From NCBI GenBank assembly GCA_020833645.1, contig JAJHRQ010000001.1:62001-126000 (forward strand): a DNA stretch of 64,000 nt. Direction: 5' to 3'. This DNA is from Thermocrinis sp. GTDB lineage: Bacteria > Aquificota > Aquificia > Aquificales > Aquificaceae. The notes beneath the pieces were generated by a model that made no database searches, had not been told where the DNA came from, and saw nothing but the letters and a program-made list of their open reading frames with translations. Made by a program: the position numbers and the translations under genes. Position 1 is the first letter of the stretch, and the number at the start of each line of letters is the position of its first letter. Positions 28,657 to 39,169 of this stretch are shown piece by piece.

Positions 28657-29640
28657 TTAAATTACTCTAAACTCCCTAAAGCAGAGGTGGGCACTGTAGT
28701 GCTTTTTTATGCGGATAAATAACTCACTGTCCATCCTTTGGGCATGCCTTTGCAAAAGCCTTAGCCCTAAGCCCATGCCTCTCTTAGCATTTTCCACAAA
28801 GTCATTTCTTACGCTGAAGAGCACTCGGTCCTTGCCCACGGAGATCCTCAAATGTATAAAGCTCTTTGAATACTTTATGGCGTTGCTAAGGAGGTTATAA
28901 AGCACGTCCTCCAGAATTCGTTCGTCCGTATGCAAGTAAAGATCTTTTCCTTTCCTAAAGATAAATTTTTTTTCCTTTACCTCATCCTCAAAAAAGCTAA
29001 GCACATTCTCCAGAACACTCCAGAAATCCACCCAAACCTTGACAGGCTTTAGTTCTTCCTCCGATAGCCTGAGGATCAAGCTAACGTCCTTCTCAAGCCT
29101 CTTTATACTCCTTTGCATCCTACCTAAGGCTTGAGGAGAGTTGGTTTTTTGCAAAAGGTTAAGGTTTGTCTTTTGAACCGCCAGAAAGTTCCCAAGCTTG
29201 TGGCTTATGGACTTTATTAAAAACCTACCAAACTCCCTGCCCTCTTCTACATTTCTCCAAAGTTTTTCCAAAGCCAACTGATAGACCAAAATCAAAGAAA
29301 AGATCAGCAAAAACTGAAAAAAGAATAATCTCTTTAGGCTCGGCTTTATGCTCTCCTTTAAATACTCTTCCCTCACAGCCACATAGACATTTTTAGAAGG
29401 GTCGGAAGGGTCCCTAAAGGAAAAGGAAAAGCCCGTTGGAATTTCCTCGGAGACAAGGAAGTATTCATCTCCCCTATGGTTTTTGCTTATGGTGTAAAGA
29501 AGATAATGGGAGTATGCCCTAAAGTAGATGCCTTCCTCTACTGTTCTTTTTAGTTCAAAGAACACAAGAATGTTCAACGCTATAAAGCCGACGGTGATCA
29601 GGGAAAGGAAAATTAGCATAAGCTTTAGCCTTTCACCCAA
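28657..29640 (-). CDS. Sensor histidine kinase, two-span
   Basis: It has 327 residues. Two membrane helices (about 7-29 and 103-123) flank an ~70-residue periplasmic sensor segment. The H-box is KSISHKLGNFLAVQKTNL (His near 147), the N-box DVLYNLLSNAIKYS (about 245-258), and the G-box is the compact GMGLGLRLL (about 288). It overlaps the response regulator gene by 8 bases and is its likely partner. The sensed signal cannot be read from sequence; phosphate is possible given the Pho-box-like site at 38992, but that is a guess. Confidence 0.85.
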   Translation of the reverse strand: MGERLKLMLIFLSLITVGFIALNILVFFELKRTVEEGIYFRAYSHYLLYTISKNHRGDEYFLVSEEIPTGFSFSFRDPSDPSKNVYVAVREEYLKESIKPSLKRLFFFQFLLIFSLILVYQLALEKLWRNVEEGREFGRFLIKSISHKLGNFLAVQKTNLNLLQKTNSPQALGRMQRSIKRLEKDVSLILRLSEEELKPVKVWVDFWSVLENVLSFFEDEVKEKKFIFRKGKDLYLHTDERILEDVLYNLLSNAIKYSKSFIHLRISVGKDRVLFSVRNDFVENAKRGMGLGLRLLQRHAQRMDSELFIRIKKHYSAHLCFREFRVI

Positions 29641-30277
29641 CGCGGTATCCCCTTCCTTTCATGGTCTTTATAAATCCTTCCGGTAGCAACTTTCTAAGGT
29701 TCTTTACGTGTGCCCTCACTACATCTTCCCCCACCGGTTCGTCACCCCACACATAGTTAAGGATTTCTTCTTGGGAGACAAAGCGCCCCCTGTTTTCCAC
29801 CAAAAACTTCAAAACAAGCCAGTCCTTTTTGCTCAAAGAAATGGGCTTTCCCTTCACCTTTACCATCTCTTTGCTAAAGCAGACCTCCACTTCGTCAATA
29901 ACCACCACATCCTGCGGGTTTTTCCTTCTGTATAGGGCTTTTAGCCTCAAGATCAGCTCCTCCATCTCAAAGGGCTTTGTTAGATAGTCATCTGCCCCAA
30001 GCTCAAAACAGGTGCGTTTGTCTTCAAGCCTTTGCTTGGCGGTAAGAACAAGGATGGGAGTTTCTTTGTCCTTTTCTCTGATAGCCTTTATAAGCTCCTC
30101 ACCCCCTATGTGTGGCATCATCAGGTCAAGGACGATCACGTCGTAGCGAGATACCTCCAAGAGGTCCATAACCTCCCTTGGGTCATACACCCAATCTGTA
30201 ATAAATCCCTCCGACTGCAAGTACTCTGTTAGGCTCTCCCCCAAAAGCCGGTCATCTTCCACCAAAAGCACCTTCAT
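29633..30277 (-). CDS. OmpR/PhoB-family response regulator
   Basis: It has 214 residues. The receiver domain has the acidic pair (EDDRLLGE, residues 7-8), the phospho-acceptor Asp in VIVLDLMMP (about 52) and Lys in LTKPFEME (about 100). The winged-helix C-terminal domain is of the OmpR/PhoB type (SKKDWLVLKFLVENRGRFVSQEEILNYVW). Such regulators usually bind direct repeats spaced 11 bp, as at 38992-39009. It overlaps radA by 4 bases. Confidence 0.9.
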   Translation of the reverse strand: MKVLLVEDDRLLGESLTEYLQSEGFITDWVYDPREVMDLLEVSRYDVIVLDLMMPHIGGEELIKAIREKDKETPILVLTAKQRLEDKRTCFELGADDYLTKPFEMEELILRLKALYRRKNPQDVVVIDEVEVCFSKEMVKVKGKPISLSKKDWLVLKFLVENRGRFVSQEEILNYVWGDEPVGEDVVRAHVKNLRKLLPEGFIKTMKGRGYRVG

Positions 30278-33492: not shown

Positions 33493-35064
33493 TTACAGCA
33501 AAGTTATCCGCTTTCCTCTTTCATAAACTGCCCTAACTGCCCTCTCTTTTTCCGCATCCTTCCTGTACTTATCCACGAAGAACATCTCTCCCACAGCCCT
33601 ATCCTTTGTAAGCGTAAGGACCGAGTAGCCCCATATTTTATGCTCTAGATACTTAGTCCAAGGGTTTTGGTTCTTTTCCGCTTGGGCAAACTCCACGTGG
33701 TTTGACACGCCGTAATCTTTCCACCAGGTGGTCTCTGCGGCACTGATGGAGGAAATGGCTGGCGCCATAAACTCCATCGCAAGAACCTTTTGATAGTCTC
33801 CTTCAAACTTGTCTGGGACCTCTGCCACCAGCCCCGCATGCCTGTCCCCCGTTATGATAACCAGATTGTCTATAGCCTTTGACTCTAAAAACCTGAGGAT
33901 CTCTTCCCTCTCTCCTGCGTAGCCATCCCAAGCATCCAAAGAACCAAAGAGTCCGTTGACCCTACCCTGAACGAACTGAACCTCGTTTGCCCAAACTTTC
34001 CAGTGGTAGCCTCTTTCTTCCAGCTTTCTGAAAAACCAAGCCTTTTGTTCCTTTCCCAGCATGGAGGTTTTTCTCTGTTCGGGACAGCCTGGGTCCGCAT
34101 ACCTCCTATTACAAGGTTGAGGTGTCCTGTAGGACCTCTCGTCGGTGCATATCAAGTGAAGGAGGTCTCCTACCTTGAAGTCCCTGTATATGGTTATCCA
34201 CTTCAATGGATCCCTTGAGTTTAGGTCTAACTTTACCTTGGCGGGTGTGTAGGTAAGCCATGCCTGTATGGCTATCCTCCTTAGTGCCAAGCTCTGGGCT
34301 TTTTTCCTGTAAAAGGGGTGTCCGGGCAACAGGTAGTAGCCTCCCTCGTAGTCGTAGGAGTAATCGTTGGCGTACTCGTGGTCATCCCAGATGTATATAA
34401 AAGGATGCATAGCACGGGCAAGCTGGTAGTCCTTGTCAGAAAGATAGGTTCTGTAAAGGTAAAGGTAGTCCTCTAAGGTGAGGGCTATTTTCCCACCGGA
34501 GGGAAGGTTCAGGTCCCTTCCGGGCACCCTTGGCGGTCCGTAGATTTTCTCGTAAATTTGGTCTCCCAGATGCACCACAAAACCTACGTCCTCTTGGGAA
34601 ATGTGCCTAAAGGCGGAGAAGTAGCCGTCCGCATAGTTTTGGCAGACAACAAAGGCAAACCTAAACTCCTCCGGGCTTCCAGCGGGCAGTGTTTTGAACC
34701 TTCCCGTCAAAGATGGAACATCTGCGTACACAAAGCGGTAATAGTAAGTGCCCCCTGGCTTTAATCCATCTATGGTAAGCTTTACCGTGTAGTCCCTTGA
34801 GGGGTTTATTCTGTCTGCAGGGACACGAACTTGGACCACCTCTGAAAAATCAGGCTTTGTGGATATCTCAAGCACCAGGTCCCTTTTCATGCTTTCGTGG
34901 ACCCTCGGCTCAATCCTCGTCCATAACACCACACTGTCCTGGGTAGGGTCTCCGCTTGCAACGCCCTGGGGAAAGACTTCGGGTGTGTCGCTGGCAAAGG
35001 CTTCTAAGTTCCTGGCAATTAAGTACAGCAGGGGTACGCTTACGAACTCTCTTCTTGTAAGCAT
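33493..35064 (-). CDS. phoD: PhoD-type alkaline phosphatase/phosphodiesterase
   Basis: It is an exported Ca/Fe-dependent phosphatase that releases phosphate from organic esters. A Tat-type signal is visible (TRREFVSVPLLYLIA, residues 3-17). Metal-site motifs are FVVHLGDQIYE (about 180-190), WDDHEYANDYSYDYEGG (about 245-261) and VIITGDRHAGLVAEV (about 408-422). It has 523 residues, the usual length. It is the last gene of the receptor-exbB-exbD-tonB unit, 4 bases after tonB, which suggests a joint phosphorus-acquisition function. Confidence 0.92.
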   Translation of the reverse strand: MLTRREFVSVPLLYLIARNLEAFASDTPEVFPQGVASGDPTQDSVVLWTRIEPRVHESMKRDLVLEISTKPDFSEVVQVRVPADRINPSRDYTVKLTIDGLKPGGTYYYRFVYADVPSLTGRFKTLPAGSPEEFRFAFVVCQNYADGYFSAFRHISQEDVGFVVHLGDQIYEKIYGPPRVPGRDLNLPSGGKIALTLEDYLYLYRTYLSDKDYQLARAMHPFIYIWDDHEYANDYSYDYEGGYYLLPGHPFYRKKAQSLALRRIAIQAWLTYTPAKVKLDLNSRDPLKWITIYRDFKVGDLLHLICTDERSYRTPQPCNRRYADPGCPEQRKTSMLGKEQKAWFFRKLEERGYHWKVWANEVQFVQGRVNGLFGSLDAWDGYAGEREEILRFLESKAIDNLVIITGDRHAGLVAEVPDKFEGDYQKVLAMEFMAPAISSISAAETTWWKDYGVSNHVEFAQAEKNQNPWTKYLEHKIWGYSVLTLTKDRAVGEMFFVDKYRKDAEKERAVRAVYERGKRITLL

Positions 35065-35068
35065 GTCT

Positions 35069-35905
35069 TTACCTCCTTAGCTGATACTCTACTTCCACCC
35101 TCAGGTTGACGGGCTTTCCAGTTGGAGGAGGAGGAAACTTTAGACTCCTTATGAGCCTGAGGGTTTCGTTGTCTATGGAGGGACTTCCGCTGGAGCTTAC
35201 AAGCCTTACATTGACGGGATTTCCAGATTCATCTATGGTAAAGCTAACCACCACTGTGCCCTCCTCTCCCCTCCTCTTTGCCTCTTCTGGGTAGCGTTTT
35301 TCGGACTCTATTATAACCTTCACCAGGGCAAAGTATCCGCTCAGTTGGTCTGCAGGAGGGGACGAGGTGGACTTTTTTTCTTGAACCTGCGGTTGGCTCT
35401 CCACCCTTTCGCGAGGAGCTACCTCCTGTCTTTGAGCCTCTCCACTGTGAGGAGCTTCCACCTGCCTGTTAGCCTCTCCACCAGTTATCCCCTTCTCCTC
35501 CCTTGGAGTTTCTCTTGTGCCTACCTCCTGAGTGGTCAAAGGTTTAACCTCCTGCGCCACTGGGCTCTCTTGGACTGGGGTCTCTCTCTTTGGCTCTTCT
35601 TTTAACTTTTGCTCCTGCGCTTTTGGTGGCTGTTGTGGAGATTTCTCTTGGGTTTTTCTTTCCATCTTTTCCCTCTTTGGTTCCCGCTGTGTTTGTCTTT
35701 CAACCCTTTGTTGTTGAGGTGGGCTTTGGGGCTTTTGCTCCAGAATGGGGAGGCTTATCACCTCCACCACCTGCTGAGGAGTTTCTGGCAAAGAGTAAAG
35801 GGTGAGCCTTGAGAAGAGGAACGCTACCGCCACAGCTGAAAAGGAAGAAAAAACAAAAGAACTAAAAAGGGTAAACAACCTCTCTCTTTTTAGCTCCGCG
35901 TTCAT
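35069..35905 (-). CDS. tonB: TonB energy transducer
   Basis: It carries proton-motive energy from ExbB-ExbD to the outer-membrane receptor. One N-terminal membrane helix (about 12-35) is followed by a long Pro/Gln/Glu/Lys-rich periplasmic linker (about 50-185) and the C-terminal TonB fold (GTVVVSFTIDESGNP … LKFPPPPTGKP, about 212-270). It has 278 residues. It overlaps exbD by 4 bases and lies 4 bases before phoD. Confidence 0.92.
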   Translation of the reverse strand: MNAELKRERLFTLFSSFVFSSFSAVAVAFLFSRLTLYSLPETPQQVVEVISLPILEQKPQSPPQQQRVERQTQREPKREKMERKTQEKSPQQPPKAQEQKLKEEPKRETPVQESPVAQEVKPLTTQEVGTRETPREEKGITGGEANRQVEAPHSGEAQRQEVAPRERVESQPQVQEKKSTSSPPADQLSGYFALVKVIIESEKRYPEEAKRRGEEGTVVVSFTIDESGNPVNVRLVSSSGSPSIDNETLRLIRSLKFPPPPTGKPVNLRVEVEYQLRR

Positions 35906-36324
35906 TTTCTCTCACCCGCTATGGCAATCTTGGAGATTCCCTCCTCCTTTAATACATCTATTACATTCATAAGGTGCTGAGCCTTTGAATCTCTATCTGC
36001 CACTATAACCACCACCAGTTGATCCTTTTGGGTTATACCCTTTAGGTGGGACTTTAGGGCTTGAAGTCCCTTCCCTACCTTCTCAGTTTCTACGTCCCCG
36101 TCTTTGCTTATGTAAACCTTAAGGGGCTCTTTCACTTGGGCGGTTTCAAGGGTGGAAGAGACGGGAAGATTTAGGTTTTGAAAGAGCATGGGAAAGACGT
36201 TCAAAGTGTAGAGAATAAAGAAGGTGAGCAAAAAGAGCATTATGTCTATCATTGGGATTATTTGTATCTCTTCCCTTTCTTGCTCGGGTTCCTCAAGCAT
36301 TGACAGAAGCCTTTGTCTCTTCAT
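35902..36324 (-). CDS. exbD: ExbD-type proton channel subunit
   Basis: It has 140 residues. One membrane helix carries the proton-path Asp (IIPMIDIMLFLLTFFIL, Asp near residue 27), followed by the periplasmic domain of the ExbD/TolR family (LKVYISKDGDVE … LVVVIVADRDSKAQHLMNVIDVL). The start overlaps the exbB end by 32 bases. Confidence 0.9.
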   Translation of the reverse strand: MKRQRLLSMLEEPEQEREEIQIIPMIDIMLFLLTFFILYTLNVFPMLFQNLNLPVSSTLETAQVKEPLKVYISKDGDVETEKVGKGLQALKSHLKGITQKDQLVVVIVADRDSKAQHLMNVIDVLKEEGISKIAIAGERK

Positions 36325-36742
36325 ACTCCTCCTCCAAAAGCTTGATCTTTAGCTCTTCCTTTATCTGGTGGTGCTTTGAGATGAAGAACTTATACCACAG
36401 ATAAAACCAAAGGGACATGGCTATACCCACCGCAGTAGCCACCAACGCCAAGCCTATGGCACCGCTTATCTCACCCGCACCCGCCACTCCCTTCCTTCCC
36501 AATTCCACAAAAGCTATTATTAAGCCTATTACCGTTCCCAAAAGTCCCAGGAGAGGGGAGGTGGTGGCAGAAAAGTCCAAAAACCAAAGACCCTTTTTAA
36601 AGTCTAAGAGCCAACGCATCAAATCCACAGGTTCTGTGTTTGGCTTTTTTCTCAGGCTCAACAGCTTTAAAAACACTATGTAGTTTCCATAGAAAAAGAC
36701 AAGGAACATCAGTATAAAGACCGCTATCTTAACCGTTTGCAT
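36293..36742 (-). CDS. exbB: ExbB-type proton channel subunit (compact)
   Basis: It has 149 residues with three membrane helices. The conserved MotA/TolQ/ExbB core is present (TTSPLLGLLGTVIGLIIAF, about 59-77, and GEISGAIGLALVATAVGIAM, about 89-108). It is shorter than E. coli ExbB (244) and lacks the N-terminal periplasmic extension, like other minimal ExbBs. It lies 2 bases from the receptor gene. Confidence 0.88.
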   Translation of the reverse strand: MQTVKIAVFILMFLVFFYGNYIVFLKLLSLRKKPNTEPVDLMRWLLDFKKGLWFLDFSATTSPLLGLLGTVIGLIIAFVELGRKGVAGAGEISGAIGLALVATAVGIAMSLWFYLWYKFFISKHHQIKEELKIKLLEEEYEETKASVNA

Positions 36743-36744
36743 AC

Positions 36745-38955
36745 TTAAAACCTCCCGCTAAGTCCCACAGAGATGGTGAAGGGTGCTCCAGCATAGTAGG
36801 TTCCGGAAGTGGTTCCGGTAGATATCCTTCCCACATACTTCTTATCCGTTAAATTCACCACATCCACGAGTAAGTCTATGCCCTTGTATATCCTCCTCTG
36901 CACGTTAAGATTTACCAGAGTGTATGAAGATACCTTTTCCGTGTTGATAAGGTTTCCGTACCTTGAGCCAATGTACTGCACGCTTGGGCTTATTCTAAAG
37001 CCCATTAGTTCAAACCTACCGCCAAGCTTTACCATATATTTGGGAGTGTCGGGCACTGTTTTATCCTTTATGTTATACTTTTTATTTCCATCGTAAAAGC
37101 TCTCATCCTTAAACTTGGCTTCGTTGTAGGAGAAGGATGTATATATGCTTACCCTCCTTACGGGCACAAAACCCAGTTCCAGCTCCGCACCGTAAGCATC
37201 CACCTTTCCTGCGTTCCTAAGGTATATGAGGTTCGGGTCTGTGGGGTCAGCAATACGTATAAGCCTGTTTTTGTATTTCACATAGTACACAGAAGGTGCT
37301 ATGTAGAACTTATCAAAGTCAAACCTTACGCCCAAGTCGTAGTTGTCCGCCTCTTCTGGCTTTAGCTGGTCCGCCACAAACTGTGCAGAGACGCCTGCGG
37401 GTATATCGCCTAAAAAGTTCTGGGGCACCCTATAGTTCTTTGCATAGGCAAAATAACCGTAGGCAAAGTTTGTAAATTGATAGCCAACCCCGAAGCTGGG
37501 AAGTGTCTTTCTGTAGGTCTTTTCGTAGGAGAGTCTTGGATCCAGAGTTAACCTTGGGTCGTCATAAACGCCATCTTCTGGGTAATAAGGGAGTCCTGTA
37601 GTTCGGTAACTTTTAAAGTCTCTCTTTACGCTTGCAAATCTTACTCCGAGGTTGATGTCCATTTTATCCAAAAGCCCCTTGGACTCAAAGAATAAATAAG
37701 GTGTGTTTGTGGTGGTCTTTGTGCGTTGGATGAAGTCGTATCTAAAGTTAGCTACATTATTCAAGGTGAAGGTGCCGTCCGGATTTACTTCGACTCTGCG
37801 GGATGGTCGCCACTCCTTTAGGTCCGCATACTCATACCAGTATCCCAGAAATAGTCTTGAGTCCTTTGGCAGTTCAAACTTCAATTCTGCTATGGCACCC
37901 GGTCTGTCCGTGTAGTTGAAGAATTCTCTGAAGAATAAGTTCCCACCGCTTATTATGGCACTCGTTCCCGAACCTCTACCTATCCACATGTAGGGCTTTA
38001 GGCTCAGCTTTACACTGTTTGTTATGTTCAGCTCTATGTTAGCCCTGAGCTGTTGGTTGGTGTAGGGGTTTTTCCAAAACTCGAAGTAATTTACGTTTTC
38101 ATTTAGGTTACGTCCTGTATTTGGAAAGAGCAGTCTATCATTATAGTCTCTCCTTCTGAATATTCTATCGTCGCTCAGTTCACTAAATTTAAACCCTCTG
38201 TATTTGTAGTTTAGCTGGACGTTCTTGTCGTAGTAAAACTCCCAAAAGAGCCTGCCTACTTTGTGGGATATGCCTACTGTGTAGTGGTCTCTGTATTCGG
38301 GGTTTTTGCCCGGACCCTTCCATTTGTCCGCTTCGGTGTGAGAGTAAGATACAAACAGTTTGGGAAGGTTTCTGTTTCCTAAAAGGTATCCCGTATCAAG
38401 TCTTATAAAGTACCTCTTGAAGTCAAAGGAACCGTACTTTCCGCTGAGAGTGATCCCAAACTTGTTGGCGGGCGGTCTTGTTCTGATCCTTATGGCACCT
38501 CCTATTTCCACGTAGAAGGGGTTCCTTTTGCTCACCGCACCTCTTTCCACCGTGATGCTCTCTAAATTTTCCACGTCTGCGTACTCATGAGGATAAAGCC
38601 TGAAGTTTCCAGAGTCGTTCAGGGGCATGTCATCAATGGTTACTCCGATTTGAGTATCGTCAAAGCCTCTCAGTCTTATGCTTCCGCCACCAAGACCGTA
38701 AGCATCATCCGTTTGGATGTTCAAGGAGGGCGTGAGTTCTATGGCTTTGAAGATATTTACACTTCCCGCACCAGACCTGACTTTTAGCTCCTCCTCCTTT
38801 ACAGTGGTCTCCGTCTTTGGAGTTCTTCTTTTTACTTCCACCGGCAGGATAGCTTCCTTTCCACCCTCTTCTTCTACTCTAACTTTTATTAGTGTCTCCT
38901 GAGAAAAAGCCAAGCTACCAAACAGTGCAGAAAGTAGAATAGCAGTTCTTCTCAT
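36745..38955 (-). CDS. TonB-dependent outer-membrane receptor
   Basis: It has 736 residues with a signal peptide at about 1-18 (MRRTAILLSALFGSLAFS). The plug domain contains SGAGSVNIFKAIELTPS, GGGSIRLRGFDDTQIGVTID and the VENLESITVERGA segment. A 22-strand barrel follows, ending in the terminal aromatic VGLSGRF. The TonB box is probably the KVEEEGGKEAILPVEV-type segment after the signal. It heads the operon with exbB-exbD-tonB-phoD, so the ligand may be an organic phosphate or a metal complex; sequence alone does not say. A Pho-box-like repeat sits 37-54 bases before its ATG. Confidence 0.9.
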   Translation of the reverse strand: MRRTAILLSALFGSLAFSQETLIKVRVEEEGGKEAILPVEVKRRTPKTETTVKEEELKVRSGAGSVNIFKAIELTPSLNIQTDDAYGLGGGSIRLRGFDDTQIGVTIDDMPLNDSGNFRLYPHEYADVENLESITVERGAVSKRNPFYVEIGGAIRIRTRPPANKFGITLSGKYGSFDFKRYFIRLDTGYLLGNRNLPKLFVSYSHTEADKWKGPGKNPEYRDHYTVGISHKVGRLFWEFYYDKNVQLNYKYRGFKFSELSDDRIFRRRDYNDRLLFPNTGRNLNENVNYFEFWKNPYTNQQLRANIELNITNSVKLSLKPYMWIGRGSGTSAIISGGNLFFREFFNYTDRPGAIAELKFELPKDSRLFLGYWYEYADLKEWRPSRRVEVNPDGTFTLNNVANFRYDFIQRTKTTTNTPYLFFESKGLLDKMDINLGVRFASVKRDFKSYRTTGLPYYPEDGVYDDPRLTLDPRLSYEKTYRKTLPSFGVGYQFTNFAYGYFAYAKNYRVPQNFLGDIPAGVSAQFVADQLKPEEADNYDLGVRFDFDKFYIAPSVYYVKYKNRLIRIADPTDPNLIYLRNAGKVDAYGAELELGFVPVRRVSIYTSFSYNEAKFKDESFYDGNKKYNIKDKTVPDTPKYMVKLGGRFELMGFRISPSVQYIGSRYGNLINTEKVSSYTLVNLNVQRRIYKGIDLLVDVVNLTDKKYVGRISTGTTSGTYYAGAPFTISVGLSGRF

Positions 38956-38991
38956 GCTAAACCTCCGTGGGAATGCAGTTTAGCAGAAAAT

Positions 38992-39009
38992 TGTTAAGTT
39001 TTTGTTAAG
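38992..39009 (-). promoter_or_regulatory. Pho-box-like direct repeat at the receptor promoter
   Basis: On the minus strand CTTAACAAAAACTTAACA holds two TTAACA units whose starts are 11 bp apart, the geometry used by PhoB/PhoP-type regulators. About 10 bp downstream is a candidate -10 (TAAACT, complement of 38977-38982, preceded by TGC). The repeat thus sits where a -35 would be, as in activator-dependent Pho promoters. The rest of 38956-39184 contains the bioA promoter and nothing else I recognise. Confidence 0.45.
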
Positions 39010-39169
39010 CTGACTGTCCGCTGACGTCCTCAAAAATTTCTCAGGGAAAGGCTTAAATATCTTCCATGATACCCTATGGTTCGTTGGTTTTGTCCTTACT
39101 GTTGGAATGAGGTAGATGAGAGGAACGAAGTTTGTCCTCATTAATGTTCTTAGAAGGGCACCTTTAATG

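Follow-up and report, generated by a model that had tools for sequence, protein, structure and literature searches.

Introduction

Phosphate control of TonB-dependent transport has been described in several bacteria, and the accounts given here follow excerpts of the respective reports. In P. aeruginosa, the PUMA3 locus, comprising phdA, pdtB, exbB2D2 and tonB4, stands under PhoB and sigma-VreI (PMC4971064). In Caulobacter crescentus, PhoB induces TonB receptors, PstSCAB and phosphatases, and the receptors have been proposed to import alternative phosphate donors (PMC11208175). Sphingobium fuliginis has a four-component Ton complex with an organophosphate hydrolase (PMC7142613). As for the DNA element, the cyanobacterial SphR box is built from CTTAACCT repeats with a 3-bp linker (PMC1906773). 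Pho-controlled receptors and Ton genes are already known elsewhere. Among the titles and abstract openings covered by our literature search, however, no operon joining a TonB-dependent receptor (TBDR), ExbBD, TonB and PhoD is described, nor is a Pho box for Aquificales or Aquificaceae.

The present study concerns such an operon in Thermocrinis sp. It lies in a 64-kb stretch of DNA (the window) that belongs to a draft assembly (G000) of 1,263,198 bases in 51 contigs, 87.6% complete. The locus resembles PUMA3 in carrying an ExbB-ExbD-TonB set behind a pho box and, as predicted from its sequence, in PhoB-dependent transcription at low phosphate (PMC4971064). The receptor-like VreA of PUMA3, however, is without a barrel and passes its signal to an ECF sigma factor (PMC4971064), whereas the Thermocrinis operon encodes a full receptor and PhoD together, and its box replaces the -35 region. 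With Caulobacter it probably shares the placement of receptors in the same PhoB regulon as PstSCAB and phosphatases, although the excerpt of that report mentions no joint operon in which a dedicated ExbBD-TonB set and PhoD accompany a receptor (PMC11208175). The Sphingobium system, as the Thermocrinis operon is predicted to do, combines a Tat-exported phosphoester hydrolase with ExbB-ExbD-TonB and uses organophosphate as a phosphate source; its hydrolase, however, is a phosphotriesterase for which binding to the Ton proteins has been reported, whereas here the enzyme is a co-encoded PhoD (PMC7142613). The SphR box matches in its CTTAAC direct repeats, its 11-bp period and its position at pst and phosphatase genes, and differs at the end of the half-site (CA in Aquificaceae) and in the number of half-sites, usually two in Aquificaceae but at least three in Synechocystis (PMC1906773). 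B. subtilis PhoD (2yeq) belongs to the same family with aligned active-site residues, and Thermocrinis PhoD differs from it in being encoded with a TonB receptor system.

Results

Five genes follow one another on the - strand from 38955 to 33493. They encode a TonB-dependent outer-membrane receptor of 736 aa with a signal-like N terminus (36745-38955; PF07715 9e-12, PF00593 4.4e-36), a short-form ExbB of 149 aa (36293-36742; PF01618 6.8e-20), an ExbD of 140 aa (35902-36324; PF02472 1.5e-24), a TonB of 278 aa (35069-35905; PF03544 7.1e-22) and a PhoD phosphatase/phosphodiesterase of 523 aa (33493-35064; PF09423 3.1e-77, PF16655 3.3e-24). The Pfam domains of all five products (Plug and TonB_dep_Rec, MotA_ExbB, ExbD, TonB_C, PhoD_N and PhoD) score above the curated cut-offs, and the unit that a sequence-only reading had placed at 33493-39009 is thus present in full. 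ExbB and ExbD overlap by 32 nt and ExbD and TonB by 4 nt, while 2 and 4 nt separate the genes at the remaining two junctions. Since neighbours overlap or lie 2 to 4 nt apart, the five genes are likely to share one transcript. A ribosome-binding site, GGAGG, can be read at 38962-38966 (- strand), ahead of the ATG at 38955. Relatives of the PhoD at 95 to 97% identity occur in Thermocrinis and Hydrogenobacter MAGs of the named collections.

Upstream, between the box and what we take to be bioA, the window holds a fragment of the start of a presumably zinc-ribbon-like gene (about 39077-39145, + strand). An intact counterpart of 122 aa is present in locus L021 (2810-3178). At the same place, L021 has a pair that we assume to be nucleotidyltransferase-like and that is missing from the window.

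The PhoD_N and PhoD domains reach 85.7 and 260.5 bits against gathering cut-offs of 30 and 27, and the protein aligns to B. subtilis PhoD (2yeq) with an E value of 1e-65. Residues C141, D168, D228, H229, D407 and H409 are invariant in 12 aligned sequences and align with 2yeq; these Cys, Asp and His residues presumably include the metal ligands. Against the NCBIfam equivalog for alkaline phosphatase PhoD (NF058638), the score of 246.7 bits is below the 1000-bit cut-off. The N-terminal TRREF, which we take to be a Tat-type motif, suggests that PhoD is exported via Tat.

The sequence of the receptor gives no clue to its substrate. It scores 139.6 bits with TIGR01783 (TonB-dependent siderophore receptor), below the cut-off of 223.5, with residues 416-736 as the best stretch, and its nearest solved chains, matched over part of the length, are siderophore receptors, FhuA and YncD/PqqU. 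An AlphaFold model built from 4 sequences had a mean pLDDT of 45 and was unusable. A Pfam search of the receptor found plug and barrel only, with no N-terminal signalling domain, and no ECF sigma or anti-sigma genes were seen adjacent to the operon. None of the operon proteins reached the NCBIfam equivalog cut-offs for ExbB, ExbD or TonB. The energising system had been called private, and this is plausible because the closed congener G053, which has three TonB_C genes, carries one of them in the operon and another 3 to 4 kb from a different receptor. The Thermocrinis assembly itself has two receptors and one recognised TonB, that of the operon (TonB_C search, 87.6% complete assembly).

Ahead of the receptor gene stands TTAACAAAAACTTAACA, two half-sites with an 11-bp period that form an exact TTAACA-N5-TTAACA (39008-38992, - strand). 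The -10 candidate TAAACT (38977-38982, - strand) follows 9 bp downstream, so the box occupies the place of a -35 element. Both features had been noted in the sequence-only reading, which compared them with PhoB/PhoP activation. The copy is the only exact one within the window, and matches with up to 2 mismatches number 8 there against 9.7 in shuffles, showing no enrichment. Inside the window alone, repeat statistics prove little. The whole assembly, in contrast, contains 8 exact copies and 12 that deviate at one position, compared with 0 and 3 when the pattern is reversed; the expected number of exact copies was 0.31 from base composition and 0.17 from half-site frequency. Across the family, the 18-mer CTTAACA-N4-CTTAACA occurs 65 times, in 30 of 64 genomes, and its reverse once. 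TANNNT begins exactly 9 bp after the box at 44 of 71 distinct sites, and at a gap of 8 to 10 bp at 47 of the 71 (shuffle mean 6.65, maximum 14), near-duplicates of each other being included among these sites. The 11-bp period and the 9-bp gap fit PhoB promoters. A generic sigma-70 scan recognised no promoter at the receptor gene, as expected for an activator-dependent promoter. Judged by these patterns, the repeat ahead of the operon is a real Pho box.

The repeat is also found at the classical pho genes of the same genome, pstSCAB, phoU and phoX, where further copies had been anticipated. One exact box precedes the pst operon, which here begins with a small secreted protein followed by PstS, PstC, PstA and PstB, and another precedes phoU. 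At phoX the promoter holds four half-sites in a row, of which one reads TTAACC, and one exact box lies just behind phoX, pointing back into it. The remaining exact boxes stand at the TonB-PhoD operon, at dnaA and at two SBBP/DUF7948 secreted-protein genes or remnants; at the second receptor gene of the genome a box was looked for and none was there. When the DNA was read at all 65 family 18-mers, the first assignable downstream gene was PstS in 13 cases, PhoX in 7, DnaA in 6, a TBDR in 5, PhoU in 2 and SBBP in 1. The other 31 of the 65 sites do not lie at a gene assigned to phosphate by similarity, being other or unassigned, and this counts against the phosphate model. Among these 31 are, judging by sequence features, presumable look-alikes of a phosphonate ABC importer (in G052) and of a type I phosphodiesterase (in G054).

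Several box-bearing loci deserve separate mention. A Pho-box 17-mer at L051:4587-4603 (contig C22) stands ahead of the dnaA ORF (L051:4624-5853). This dnaA box is present in all 6 genomes of one g1 subclade (G000, G052-G056), and is exact in G052 even though the bases after it differ. In G051 and in the remaining genera that were read it is absent (at least 3 mismatches). The spacing to the downstream hexamer, TATGCT, is 19 bp instead of 9 bp. It would be unusual for phosphate to be linked to the start of replication in this subclade. Near-identical box promoters precede SBBP/DUF7948 beta-propeller secreted paralogues at L053:6016, L052:7219 and L055:3509 (contigs C29, C12 and C19); one of the three loci is a remnant and one has a one-mismatch box. 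SBBP/DUF7948 is possibly a Pho-controlled secreted protein family.

In G028 and G104 (L146:711-4611, L147:5705-8999), box-like repeats precede a small-protein cluster with a P-type ATPase (a PF00122 match in G028) that adjoins the receptor operon, and in G027 and G056 boxes stand at genes of 123 and 101 aa whose start is similar. In the Thermocrinis assembly, a gene for a secreted-looking protein of 76 aa (L046:16181-16411, contig C47), 57% identical in G027 and without a match in a Pfam search, separates pstS from its Pho box. A 78-aa ORF repeat (MQSFQSLLDARCG...) occurs in two copies (L048:7125-7361 and L047:3653-3889, contig C27), one of them as an insertion that separates the kinase gene from the phoU Pho box; it may be a mobile or repeat element.

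Among 136 Aquificota genomes, the receptor query matches 28 and the PhoD query 26. The receptor match is orthologue-like (about 40% identity or more, fragments included) in 17 of the 28, and the order TBDR-ExbB-ExbD-TonB-PhoD was read in 12 of these 17 (G000, G053, G054, G027, G028, G039, G046, G026, G099, G101, G103 and G104). Three of the 12 have defects: the receptor of G026 is broken, phoD of G099 contains a single in-frame stop, and in G103 the contig ends within phoD. Among the remaining five genomes, contig ends truncate the locus in G056 and G035, and the three from g5 differ. In G026 the receptor gene (L151:4900-7010) has several stops, and exbB, exbD, tonB and phoD stay open.

The box precedes the operon in each of the 8 Aquificaceae loci whose start can be read, a count that leaves out G026 with its broken receptor and G035 and G038 with their contig ends. 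It is exact in G000, G053, G054, G056, G028 and G046 and has one mismatch in G027. In G039 four half-sites form an array, with TTAACA at both outer positions and TTAACC at both inner ones; the array precedes a lipoprotein-like gene, which lies directly upstream of the receptor. The box is also kept at operon copies whose receptor is only 61 to 63% identical. In the second family, a search allowing up to 2 mismatches found no box ahead of the receptor in G099, G101 or G103, and one with two mismatches in G104. G099 has a Pho island, phoX-TBDR-exbB-exbD-tonB-phoD-porin-pstS-pstC-pstA, with a box-like repeat before pstS. In g5 (G033 and G031 read), box-like repeats stand upstream of three genes, encoding the receptor, another receptor and ExbB, and a phosphoesterase of family PF04185 (E 3.9e-13 and 3.1e-12) replaces PhoD as the phosphatase; its gene directly follows tonB in G033 and runs in the opposite direction in G031.

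Discussion

Phosphate regulation of the operon is well supported at the sequence level by the box, its geometry and its company at pst and pho genes. We consider low-phosphate-induced uptake of bulky phosphoesters, followed by periplasmic hydrolysis by PhoD, to be the best explanation of the locus and a likely one. Regulation, gene order and the exchange of enzymes lead us to infer import and periplasmic cleavage of such an ester. The best sign that the unit serves phosphoester hydrolysis is the replacement of PhoD by an unrelated phosphoesterase in g5. Several points weigh against this explanation: many PhoD genes in relatives occur without a receptor, so PhoD can do without one; the receptor's profile is closest to siderophore receptors; and its box is unrecognisable or poor in the second family. 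The role first proposed, organic phosphate uptake with PhoD acting on the substrate, is probably right, and its choice of substrate is reasonable.

The main rival holds that the receptor imports a ferric chelate at low phosphate and thereby loads iron-dependent PhoD and PhoX, PhoD being the beneficiary of transport and not the processor of its substrate. Iron as a PhoD cofactor and the coupling of iron and phosphate are the topic of one report seen in excerpt (PMC6713934), and the Pho-boxed P-type ATPase operon near the receptor in G028 and G104 indicates that metal transport may belong to the regulon. The receptor is also nearest to siderophore receptors; such scores, however, are generic among receptors, and this one is below the cut-off. 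Moreover, the operon has no siderophore ABC importer or binding protein, a scan of the window with a Fur-box consensus (up to 3 mismatches) gave no site, and the g5 partner enzyme comes from another family, PF04185. We regard iron supply as an unlikely purpose, though one to be taken seriously.

Returning to uptake and hydrolysis of phosphoesters, the question is which regulator reads the box. An OmpR/PhoB-type regulator (29633-30277) and a kinase (28657-29640), both identified by Pfam domains, lie about 3 to 5 kb from the 3' end of the operon; the sequence-only reading had seen them 3 to 9 kb away and had proposed the regulator as activator. That the pair is dedicated to the operon is very improbable, despite its fitting domains and its position next to the operon in the congeners G053 and G054 and in L021. 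With the PhoB model TIGR02154, the 29633 regulator scores 143 bits, whereas regulators at C27:42811 and C14:4126 score 211.6 and 205.7; even the best is under the cut-off of 296.2, which no candidate reaches. The 29633 type occurs in 41 of 64 family genomes, but in 0 of 7 from g2 and 0 of 5 from g5, although the pstS box is there in four of those g2 genomes (G001-G004). In G026, G027, G028, G039 and G046 its gene is unlinked to the operon, lying at a distance or on a separate contig, and in the window the pair sits among housekeeping genes, which we take to be aroA-like, radA-like and moaA-like. As a candidate for PhoB, the 29633 regulator was rejected on its score relative to C27 and its lack in all 7 g2 genomes, and it is probably not PhoB.

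The likely reader of the box is the C27 regulator (G000:C27:42811-43485). Its type is present in 52 of 64 family genomes and in 39 of the 42 good ones. At the threshold used, no regulator of the C27 type was matched in G002 and G003, drafts that are 91% and 82% complete and have the box at pstS. In the Thermocrinis assembly, phoU is preceded at a short distance by the gene for a PhoR-like kinase (HisKA, HATPase_c).

To read the repeat as a plain sigma-70 promoter element or as a product of chance, free of phosphate control, is hardly credible, even though TTAACA is similar to TTGACA and the pattern is not enriched within the window. Chance is ruled out by enrichment in genome and family against the matched control and by the constant 11-bp period and 9-bp gap, and the repeat is located at pst, phoU and phoX.

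Under the phosphoester explanation, low phosphate would act through a PhoB-type regulator, most likely that of C27, with the kinase encoded upstream of phoU as its partner. The regulator would bind the two TTAACA half-sites spaced by 11 bp and recruit RNA polymerase to the -10 element that lies 9 bp beyond the box. The receptor would then bind a bulky phosphate ester or diester barred from porins, and ExbB-ExbD-TonB made from the same message would power its import into the periplasm. There, Tat-exported PhoD would cleave it, and the freed phosphate would be taken in by the co-regulated PstSCAB.

A further, more tentative idea is that the operon forms a self-contained import-and-hydrolyse phosphoester module that is inherited as a whole, in which the enzyme can be swapped (PhoD or PF04185) and the phosphatase may contact the Ton complex. 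We find this conceivable but would not yet favor it. If it were true, the Ton machine itself would be under phosphate control, not iron control, in deep-branching thermophiles.

The sharply defined Pho box of Aquificaceae offers a means to read off the phosphate regulon, and the operon narrows the substrate of its receptor through the partner enzyme and the regulation. If the substrate is confirmed, an entire Ton system would be dedicated to phosphorus scavenging. Aquifex-group hot-spring bacteria thus probably scavenge phosphate from bulky organic phosphates.
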